From contig NZ_ATXI01000001.1 of the NCBI RefSeq assembly GCF_000421605.1, forward strand, positions 1 to 64,000: a DNA stretch of 64,000 bases. Direction: 5' to 3'. Shown here one piece after another: positions 13,379-16,328 of this stretch. Each line of letters opens with the position of its first letter. Position 1 is the first letter of the stretch. Both the position numbers and the translations under genes were made by a program. The DNA is from Thermodesulfobacterium thermophilum DSM 1276 (lineage in GTDB: Bacteria; Desulfobacterota; Thermodesulfobacteria; Thermodesulfobacteriales; Thermodesulfobacteriaceae). The notes under the pieces are model-generated. The model did no database searches. It saw only the letters and a list, made by a program, of their open reading frames with translations, and was not told the DNA's origin.

Positions 13379-14893
13379 TTACTCCTGGTTTAAGATTTGA
13401 ATGTTAGCTATTTTAGCAGAAAAAATAGACAAAACCTCCTTTACTTCAGGCCTTTCTTTTATTTCTTCAACCTTAGGTTGAGATACAGGCTCAACCTCTA
13501 TGTTTACTGTTTTTTTAAAAAAGTCTTTAATCTTTTCTATAAGCTCTTCAAAATGTGGAGAATTTTTTAGTGTTGTTTTAACTCTTAAACGTATATGGGA
13601 GGCATCAAAAGAAGGGTCAGGTAAACTTTTGGCAAGACCAAACAAAAGAGGACGTTCCCTTTTAAGTTTTTCTAAAAACTCTTGCCAGGTTTTCTCATCG
13701 GAAACCTGAGGCTCTTTTTTTTCTTCAACTTCAGCTACCAAAGGTTCTGAGCTTACCTGACCAAAGGTAAGGTTAGGAAGGCTTTCAAGTTTTTCTATCA
13801 GTTTGTTTATCGGAACCAATTTAGCTTGTTCACAAATCCTTACCAAGGCTAACTCAAACTGTAGTTGAGGATAACTACTTCTTCTTAAAACCTCAAGGTC
13901 TCTGGTAAGACTTTGTAAAACCAAAAAGATTTCTTCCAACTCATACTCTAAAACCAGGTCCACAAGCTGAGGATTTTGGAATGGCTGAGTTTTTTCATGA
14001 GGTAAGGCTTTCATCAAGAAAAGCTCTCTAAAAAACTCAGTAAGTTTTTCCATAAGATAGATCAAATCTATTCCTTGTTCATAAATCTTTTGAGCCACTT
14101 CTAAGGTTTTCCTTAGATTTTTTTCTAACAATACTTGGGCTAACTCTTCTATCAAAAGGGCTTCATGCCATCCAAAAGCCTGGATGATATCTTCTTTGGT
14201 ATGACTACCATAGGCCATAGCCTGATCTAAAAGCGATAGGGCATCCCTTAAACTCCCTTGAGCTTCCTTGGCAATAAGCCTTAAGGCATCTTCTTCTATT
14301 TGATAGTTTTCTTTTTCACAAATAGACTTGAGATGCTTTATCAACTGAGGCAGGTCTAACTTTCTAAAATCATAACGTTGACATCTCGAAAGTATGGTAG
14401 GTAAAAGTTTATTTGGCTCTGTAGTAGCTAAGATAAAATAAACGTGGGAAGGAGGCTCTTCTAAAGACTTAAGCAAGGCGTTTGAAGCCTCTTTGGTAAG
14501 CATATGGGCTTCGTCTATGATGTAGACCTTAGCTTTACCTCTGGTAGGGGCATATTTAAAGTTTTCTATGATTTCACGGATCTGGTCTATACCTCTGTTT
14601 GAGGCAGCATCTATCTCTATAACGTCTACAAAAACCCCGCGGTTAATCTCCAAACAATTAGGACACTGATTACAGGGCTCGTACCCGTCAATTAAGTTTA
14701 AGCAGTTTAAAGCTTTAGCTACAATCCTTGCTATCGTGGTCTTACCTGTTCCCTTGATACCAGAAAATAAAAGGGCATGAGAAAGTTTCCCAGATTTTAT
14801 AGCATTAGCTATAGTCTTAACTACATGGATTTGACCGATTACTTCACTAAAAGTCTGAGGTCTATACCTTCTGGCTAAAACCAAATAAGACAT
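13379..14893 (-). CDS. dnaX: DNA polymerase III subunit gamma/tau
   Basis: This is the clamp-loader ATPase. SGIKGTGKTTIAR is the Walker A, followed by a zinc-binding cysteine cluster (CLNLIDGYEPCNQCPNCLEI), the DEAH Walker B (IIDEAHMLTKEA), and sensor and arginine-finger segments (ATTEPNKL, ILSRCQRYDF). Domain III and a shorter tau-like tail follow, 504 residues in total. I see no obvious slippery A-run giving a gamma form, though this was not tested. The gene starts 16 nt after the small TGA-containing gene, so that gene is probably cotranscribed. Confidence 0.95.
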   Translation of the reverse strand: MSYLVLARRYRPQTFSEVIGQIHVVKTIANAIKSGKLSHALLFSGIKGTGKTTIARIVAKALNCLNLIDGYEPCNQCPNCLEINRGVFVDVIEIDAASNRGIDQIREIIENFKYAPTRGKAKVYIIDEAHMLTKEASNALLKSLEEPPSHVYFILATTEPNKLLPTILSRCQRYDFRKLDLPQLIKHLKSICEKENYQIEEDALRLIAKEAQGSLRDALSLLDQAMAYGSHTKEDIIQAFGWHEALLIEELAQVLLEKNLRKTLEVAQKIYEQGIDLIYLMEKLTEFFRELFLMKALPHEKTQPFQNPQLVDLVLEYELEEIFLVLQSLTRDLEVLRRSSYPQLQFELALVRICEQAKLVPINKLIEKLESLPNLTFGQVSSEPLVAEVEEKKEPQVSDEKTWQEFLEKLKRERPLLFGLAKSLPDPSFDASHIRLRVKTTLKNSPHFEELIEKIKDFFKKTVNIEVEPVSQPKVEEIKERPEVKEVLSIFSAKIANIQILNQE

Positions 14894-14909: not shown

Positions 14910-15128
14910 CTATTTTGAAAGTTTACAACCGAAACCTGAAATCCAACTCTCTTTTAGTTTTTCGATTTCTTCCTCATATTCTTTTGCAGGCCTCTCCATA
15001 CCACAGGTAAGACACCTTACCTTAGCCTTAGCTCAGGTGCCCTCTAAAACCGCCTTTCCTCCGCAGTACTTACACGTAAGATAATCCTCGCTCTCCTTTG
15101 TTTTATAAAGTTCTGAAGACCTTTCCAT
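14910..15128 (-). CDS. Candidate dual-CxxC small selenoprotein (in-frame TGA)
   Basis: A 72-codon frame runs from ATG (15126-15128) to TAG at 14910-14912 and is interrupted only by TGA at codon 32 (15033-15035). Before it: MERSSELYKTKESEDYLTCK, then YCGGKAVLEGT. After it: AKAKVRCLTCGMERPAKEYE and a Lys/Glu helix ending GFGCKLSK. C19xxC22 and C39xxC42 flank the recoded site, as in a zinc-ribbon or redox miniprotein. A 6-bp hairpin follows exactly 11 nt after the TGA. I recall a database family described as a small dual-CxxC (seleno)protein, unverified. Alternatives are a nonsense-mutated gene or a sequencing error. It begins 6 nt after lhgO ends and precedes dnaX by 16 nt. Function is unknown. 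Confidence 0.72.
15006..15021 (-). promoter_or_regulatory. Putative bacterial SECIS hairpin
   Basis: The minus-strand sequence GGTAAG-GTGT-CTTACC is a perfect 6-bp stem with a 4-nt loop starting with G. It begins 11 nt after the TGA, so the loop starts 17 nt after it. E. coli fdhF has the same 11-nt spacing to its minimal SECIS hairpin, and a G in the first loop positions is a family rule. Pairing of AGGCT with GGCCT further out may extend it with an internal loop. SelB would bind it to insert selenocysteine. Confidence 0.65.
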
Positions 15129-15134
15129 TTTTCT

Positions 15135-16328
15135 CTAAAAAAATCGAGTTACTACATATTCTGCAAAAGGAAGACAGGCTGTAAAGGCTGGAGAAACGGC
15201 ATTTAAAATATGAAGGCTATGTTTGTCCCCTTCTATCACAAAATCCTGAACTAACTCCAAGGTATTCTTGTTTAAAAGTTGAGCTCTTATCCCTGGCTTG
15301 CCCCATCTGTTAAAACCTTTTTCATCCATTCGGTAGACCAACTTTTTAGCCTCCTTTATCAGATACCTCCTATGATATTTCTTTAGCTCATCCAAGGCAA
15401 GACTCCTAAACTTAGGATTTTTAAAAAAGAGTAGGCCTAAATAACCTGTAATTTCAACCAACTCAGAAAACCTTAGGTTAGAAAAAATCTGATAGTTTTC
15501 TCTCGAAAAACAAGGGGTAGCCGTAGGGCCTATTTTAATGGTACCGTCAACTTTTATCGTAAAATGAACACCTAAGAAAGGATTTTTAAGATTTGGCGTG
15601 GGATAGATGTTTCTCGAGATAAACTGAGAATTGCCTGTATATTCCAGATAAAGTCCTTTAAAAGGTAAGATAACGTAGTCTTTACCAAAACCAAAGTCTT
15701 TGGCTATCTTATCCGCATAAAGACCGGCTGCGTTGATGATTTTTTCTGCAGAAAAAACAAGGTCTCCTGCTAAAATGGTATTTTCATCAAGTCTTTTTTG
15801 ATAAGGAGTTTTAAAGAAAAACCTTACTCCTTCTGCCTCTAGGTCTGTTTTAAAAGCATGTAGGATCTCTATAGGATTTACGGTAGAGGTGTTAGGACTC
15901 CAAAGGGCTAACTGAAAGGTTCTTGCGTTAGGTTCGATTTCTTTAAGTTCTTTTTCGTCTATCAGATAAACTTCTACTCCGTTAGCCTCACCCCTTCTTT
16001 TTAGTTCATAAAGGGTAGGAAGGTCTTCTTCAGATTTAGTTACCACTACCTTTCCACATTTTCTAATACTAAGGCCTTTGGCCTCGCAATAACGAGTAAG
16101 TTCTTCGTTCCCCTTTTTAGTGAATTTAGCTTTTAGCGAATCTGGATAGTAGTAAAAACCTGCATGAAGCACCCCACTATTTCTTCCACTACTATGAGCC
16201 CCCAGTGTCTCTTCTTTTTCTAAGACAATGATTTCTTTTTCTGGAAAACGCGTTTTTAATTTTAAAGCCAAAGCAAGTCCAACGATGCCTGCTCCGATGA
16301 TAAGAAAATCTGTCTTTATTTTTGGCAT
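15135..16328 (-). CDS. lhgO: FAD-dependent oxidoreductase, L-2-hydroxyglutarate oxidase-like
   Basis: This DAO-family flavoprotein oxidises 2-hydroxy acids; LhgO clears L-2-hydroxyglutarate and passes electrons to the quinone pool. The FAD Rossmann motif is FLIIGAGIVGLALALKL (8-24), followed by GAHSSGRNSGVLHAGFYY, the LhgO hallmark, then INAAGLYADKIA and a C-terminal NAVSPAFTACLPFAEYV. At 397 residues it is full length. A promoter lies just upstream (16335-16362). The tiny TGA-containing gene begins 6 nt downstream, so the pair may be functionally linked. The exact substrate is inferred from family similarity. Confidence 0.85.
   Translation of the reverse strand: MPKIKTDFLIIGAGIVGLALALKLKTRFPEKEIIVLEKEETLGAHSSGRNSGVLHAGFYYYPDSLKAKFTKKGNEELTRYCEAKGLSIRKCGKVVVTKSEEDLPTLYELKRRGEANGVEVYLIDEKELKEIEPNARTFQLALWSPNTSTVNPIEILHAFKTDLEAEGVRFFFKTPYQKRLDENTILAGDLVFSAEKIINAAGLYADKIAKDFGFGKDYVILPFKGLYLEYTGNSQFISRNIYPTPNLKNPFLGVHFTIKVDGTIKIGPTATPCFSRENYQIFSNLRFSELVEITGYLGLLFFKNPKFRSLALDELKKYHRRYLIKEAKKLVYRMDEKGFNRWGKPGIRAQLLNKNTLELVQDFVIEGDKHSLHILNAVSPAFTACLPFAEYVVTRFF

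Follow-up and report, generated by a model that had tools for sequence, protein, structure and literature searches.

A predicted bacterial SECIS hairpin in an NF041197 selenoprotein gene of Thermodesulfobacterium thermophilum

The SECIS of Escherichia coli fdhF has a stem that begins 11 nt after the UGA, an AGGUCU apical loop and a bulged U on its 5' side. For bacterial SECIS elements (bSECIS) generally, a published model specifies an apical loop of 3–9 nt, an upper stem of 4–16 bp, a G within the first two loop positions and 16–37 nt between the UGA and the apical loop (PMC13188914 Fig. 2). The same source lists the protein family NF041197, which NCBIfam names 'dual CXXC motif small (seleno)protein', twice, as OS_HP3, which carries an RxU motif, and as 'hypothetical protein DW', which carries GxU (PMC13188914). 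The DW entry stems from deep-Sep, a study whose new selenoproteins were presented with Sec/Cys alignments and with SECIS-like structures immediately 3' of the UGA (PMC12013277).

Here we describe a gene within a 64,000-nt stretch of the genome of T. thermophilum DSM 1276, a thermophilic sulfate reducer (contig NZ_ATXI01000001.1, positions 1 to 64,000; hereafter the window). It shares with NF041197/DW the arrangement CxxC-x9-U-x6-CxxC, the GxU motif, the alternation of Sec and Cys and a SECIS-like structure right after the UGA. We assign it to DW by the GxU motif and the common NF041197 accession, DW itself (SMF39960.1) being compared by description only. Like the fdhF element, its hairpin lies just 3' of the UGA and presents G/U in a small apical loop; it differs in having a 7-bp stem 10 nt after the UGA, a GUGU loop, smaller than that of fdhF, and a bulged G on the 3' side. 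The OS_HP3 branch, designated form 1 below, has the same protein architecture, and part of it shares the hairpin register, with NGGUGN loops; it differs in carrying RxU rather than GxU and other flanking residues, and in that the hairpin of most of its remaining members is shifted 6 nt downstream, into a second register. We put the probability at about 0.94 that the window hairpin is a bacterial SECIS for selenocysteine 32 of a small, zinc-ribbon-like NF041197/DW protein. As both the gene family and the SECIS type are already published, the gene is well supported as a further example and represents no new mechanism.

A predicted small selenoprotein gene and the selenocysteine machinery

The gene occupies 14910..15128 on the minus strand and, with TGA read as U, encodes 72 residues, MERSSELYKTKESEDYLTCKYCGGKAVLEGT-U-AKAKVRCLTCGMERPAKEYEEEIEKLKESWISGFGCKLSK, the middle part of which reads CKYCGGKAVLEGT-U-AKAKVRCLTC. 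The in-frame TGA (15033..15035, minus strand) corresponds to residue 32, which lies between two CxxC motifs, the arrangement expected of NF041197. With Cys substituted for U, the protein passes the family cutoff narrowly (41.7 bits against 40), and it scores 32.8 bits when the stop is simply read through, as in our genome search. The window protein carries GTU where most relatives carry GRU. Comparison with the Lar restriction alleviation protein family (PF14354) gave 21.4 bits, below the gathering cutoff of 28.6 bits, and a search of viral contigs returned no relatives of the gene.

NF041197 occurs in 112 of 395 genomes of the phylum. We read 141 loci through the motif CxxC...[U/C]...CxxC, leaving out nine loci that lack it; with a motif that allowed only TGA or Cys at the site, 114 of the 141 homologues have TGA and 27 have Cys. 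Two groups emerge among the homologues: form 1, in which RxU predominates, and form 2, in which GxU predominates and to which the window gene belongs. Most form-2 members score below the curated NF041197 cutoff when their stops are read through, and all 25 of the 25 form-2 rows match NF041197. This match, together with the listing of the GxU type in PMC13188914, led us to drop the idea that form 2 is a subfamily without a name.

Both neighbors of the gene lie on the minus strand as well. Upstream, an ORF for an LhgO-like FAD oxidoreductase (15135..16328) ends 6 nt before the ATG of the Sec gene, and downstream, dnaX (13379..14893) starts 16 nt past its stop; both neighbors were named from their own sequences rather than by a family scan. 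The order lhgO-like, Sec gene, dnaX is kept in L051 (T. hveragerdense), L060 and L061, and adjacency of the Sec gene to dnaX in L051, L057, L059, L060 and L061. Comparisons within the genus reveal purifying selection upstream and downstream of the TGA alike. Past the TGA, pN is 0.04–0.11, and 0.06–0.11 across codons 11–30, against a pS of approximately 0.8–1.4 for the four more distant members (L057, L058, L059 and L061), with L060 and L051 being too near for such a judgement (pS 0.10 and 0.21). Selection downstream of the TGA indicates, at the level of sequence comparison, that translation continues past it. Under translation table 11, the TGA would be read as a stop, and it might accordingly be a true terminator, a sequencing error or the mark of a pseudogene, with the downstream frame untranslated. 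In 114 homologues TGA is conserved at this single site, and the remaining 27 have Cys there; this makes such a reading highly improbable, as do the constraint on the downstream frame and the CxxC pair, which needs both halves of the protein.

Selenocysteine insertion would also draw on dedicated machinery. The genome contains a tRNA-Sec gene (selC, 80.9 bits) together with selA, selB and selD, the Sec machinery that the bSECIS criteria call for. Its selD has an in-frame TGA (L223, G000:C3:6179-7111), so that selenophosphate synthetase (SelD) is itself probably a selenoprotein in this organism, and a gene for an FdhA-like protein likewise has one, in the context RIUHSATVA (L170:1808-1810, G000:C12 about 38307). 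In the FdhA-like gene we also observed a possible SECIS stem, GCTCT-GGC-AGAGT, whose loop lies about 23 nt downstream. An impression that the fdhA contig is unusually GC-rich was dropped (GC 0.38–0.41). The presence of tRNA-Sec, SelA and SelB, and of SelD and FdhA genes that also bear in-frame TGA, speaks against a changed code in which TGA specifies another amino acid such as Trp. The other ORFs of the region are normal under table 11, and the collected homologues show TGA or Cys only, albeit through a motif that allowed just those two; a changed code thus has negligible probability. Co-occurrence with SelB across the phylum was uninformative, selB being near-universal (353/395), and the two TGA carriers observed without selB (G042 and G113) are incomplete MAGs.

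An AlphaFold model of the protein, of only moderate confidence (pLDDT 72, pTM 0.48), is zinc-ribbon-like, with strands at residues 25–29, 36–39 and 45–47, a helix at 52–66 and Sec32 in the turn between two strands. Fold matches in the PDB were weak (all E above 0.1), and many zinc-ribbon proteins are among them. As a guess, the Sec between the two CxxC knuckles is probably used as a redox or metal-binding residue.

Structure of the hairpin and its expectation by chance

The original prediction placed a hairpin, GGTAAG-GTGT-CTTACC with G first in the loop, 11 nt after the TGA, and each of these elements is present on the minus strand: the 11-nt spacer GCTAAGGCTAA (15032-15022), the arm GGTAAG (15021-15016), the loop GTGT (15012..15015) and the arm CTTACC (15011-15006). 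The proposed 6-bp stem pairs perfectly, but the actual perfect stem is longer. An A15022–U15005 pair extends it to 7 bp, starting 10 nt after the UGA, so that the upper stem consists of AGGUAAG (15016..15022, minus strand) and CUUACCU (15005..15011, minus strand), around a GUGU loop that holds the codon for Cys39. Beneath it, a bulged G15004 and the 3' arm UGGU (together 15000..15004, minus strand) complete a lower stem of four pairs with GCUA (15026-15023/15003-15000); thus the last base of the spacer (15022) and 15023-15026 are themselves base-paired in the fold. The lower stem varies among orthologues. An exact match to fdhF spacing had also been claimed; 11 nt is right for the 6-bp stem, but the figure is a coincidence of counting rather than a diagnostic signature, because the stem in fact starts 10 nt after the UGA and spacing varies within the family.

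In a 39-nt fragment beginning at the UGA, the minimum-free-energy fold (−11.1 kcal/mol, z −1.8) is identical with this hairpin, whose 18-nt core yields −7.3 kcal/mol (z −4.4). In a 52-nt fragment, competing folds beat the hairpin (z −0.28). Relative to the bSECIS model, the hairpin has a 4-nt loop and a 7-bp upper stem, a G at the first position of the loop (GUGU) and 17 nt between UGA and apical loop, all within the published limits (PMC13188914 Fig. 2). We propose that a ribosome arriving at the UGA (15035-15033) would encounter the 7-bp stem, GUGU loop and bulged lower stem just downstream; SelB carrying Sec-tRNA-Sec would bind the hairpin, and the UGA would be decoded as selenocysteine 32.

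Counting both strands, the window has 1,747 TGA triplets, and the exact pattern of a TGA, 11 nt, a 6-bp stem and a 4-nt loop starting with G occurs at 1 of them, against an expectation of 0.15 under a first-order Markov model. A fairer null holds the protein fixed and draws on local codon usage. Under such synonymous recoding, an equally stable SECIS-type hairpin arises in about 3% of sequences (p about 0.03), a rate reflecting that the codons for V-R-C-L-T already favor part of the stem. For this reason the single gene is suggestive rather than conclusive, and hairpin and coding evidence are partly dependent on each other. The hairpin had been put forward as independent support for recoding; the SECIS reading is borne out, but the protein segment KVRCLT itself favors a hairpin (p=0.03). 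Alone, the window gene therefore offers only modest evidence for a SECIS, and the strength comes from comparative data.

Pairing across orthologues

Coding supplies the most direct competitor to the SECIS reading, namely that the hairpin is a by-product of encoding K-V-R-C-L-T and that the stem is no SECIS, even if the TGA is recoded. Once Arg is encoded by AGN and Leu by CTN, GT of Val with AC of Thr, and G of Arg with C of Leu, pair whatever the codon choice, and synonymous recoding reaches the observed stability at the 3% rate given above. The distribution of synonymous changes departs from this expectation. Among 25 distinct orthologous sequences of the window's clade, all seven stem pairs form in every case (175/175 cells), including 100% pairing of the 5' arm. 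The third positions of the Val and Leu codons are GTA/CTT in 10 sequences and GTG/CTC in 15, never mixed, although this two-sided change goes hand in hand with genus and GC content and thus may represent as few as one independent event. Arg is AGG in 25/25, against a usage of 0.34 for AGG in the window, AGG TGY is invariant, and Thr/Ala is xCC in 25/25, whereas, outside the stem, the synonyms for Ala, Cys and Gly interchange freely. Shuffled partners reached the observed pairing or covariation score in 0 of 500 trials, and sliding the stem partner abolished pairing.

The 25-sequence set excludes L065, a KIRCLDC sequence without the stem; among the form-2 loci of the VRCL type read in the window's class, it is the only one in which the stem is not kept. 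The best hairpin of this TGA-bearing form-2 orthologue (L065 / L194, G309) is a different one, 28 nt after the UGA.

Form 1, with other amino acids at the corresponding positions, has an equivalent stem. In 23 form-1 sequences in the same register, 91% of cells are paired, and two-sided changes occur at 6 of 9 pairs (26 cells), a level reached by 0 of 500 shuffles. The Leu codon tends to match that of the residue following Cys (CTT/AAG, CTG/CAG, TTG/CAA and CTC/GAG); 8 of the 23 rows are unpaired at this Leu/post-Cys position, and some of them use the second of the two registers described below. The fixed or covarying in-stem third positions and Arg/Leu codon boxes in form 2, set against freedom outside the stem, and the two-sided changes in form 1 leave the coding by-product improbable; given the synonymous-site pattern, we consider it largely refuted. 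The covariation anticipated among homologous TGA genes is thus found, as GC in 15 and AU in 10 sequences at the Val–Leu third-position pair and as the two-sided changes in the sister form.

The loop lies either 15–17 nt after the UGA (register A, which includes the window gene) or 22–24 nt after it (register B), both inside the published range of 16–37 nt or bordering on it (PMC13188914). In register A the loop lies over the third Cys codon, and in register B the second CxxC motif supplies the stem with its two Cys codons. On balance, and by a slight margin over even odds, we favor the view that the SECIS of this family has switched register around an unmoved UGA, and that the form-1 stem limits the post-Cys residue to Lys, Gln or Glu, with RNA thereby shaping protein.

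Selenocysteine- and cysteine-encoding homologues

Hairpin potential differs between homologues that encode Sec and those that encode Cys. In a scan for bSECIS-like structures with synonymous recoding as the null, Sec genes averaged a z of −1.85, with 56 of 114 below p 0.05, and Cys genes averaged −0.46, with 3 of 27 below that level (Mann-Whitney p=1.2e-5); the Cys homologues come from few families, and the rows are thus not independent. Of the Sec genes, 104/114 have a hairpin at least as stable as −5 kcal/mol in either register, against 7/27 of the Cys genes, a difference for which the Fisher p of 1.5e-11 is descriptive, as threshold and registers were picked after the data had been seen and the rows are related. 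The expected loss of the hairpin in Cys homologues is accordingly seen in most of them. Six genomes (G036, G389, G145, G261, G357 and G376) carry both a Sec and a Cys copy, and in these the hairpin is present in 6/6 Sec copies and 1/6 Cys copies. Together, covariation and loss in Cys homologues support the SECIS interpretation, with the qualifications given for each.

In two Cys-encoding form-1 genes (L117 and L050, in G195 and G240) a stable hairpin is still present 14 nt past the Cys codon and may be left over from a Sec-encoding ancestor.

The form-2 profile matches 30 of the 41 genomes of the window's class, and the form-2 loci read in that class have TGA at this position throughout. In this class the gene is thus regularly a selenoprotein gene, one that standard annotation would cut short at its TGA. 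For a family described by prediction in the papers cited here, our analysis provides firm support from comparison, compensatory changes at synonymous sites among it, and the family provides a clean natural data set for the mutual constraint between SECIS position and protein sequence.
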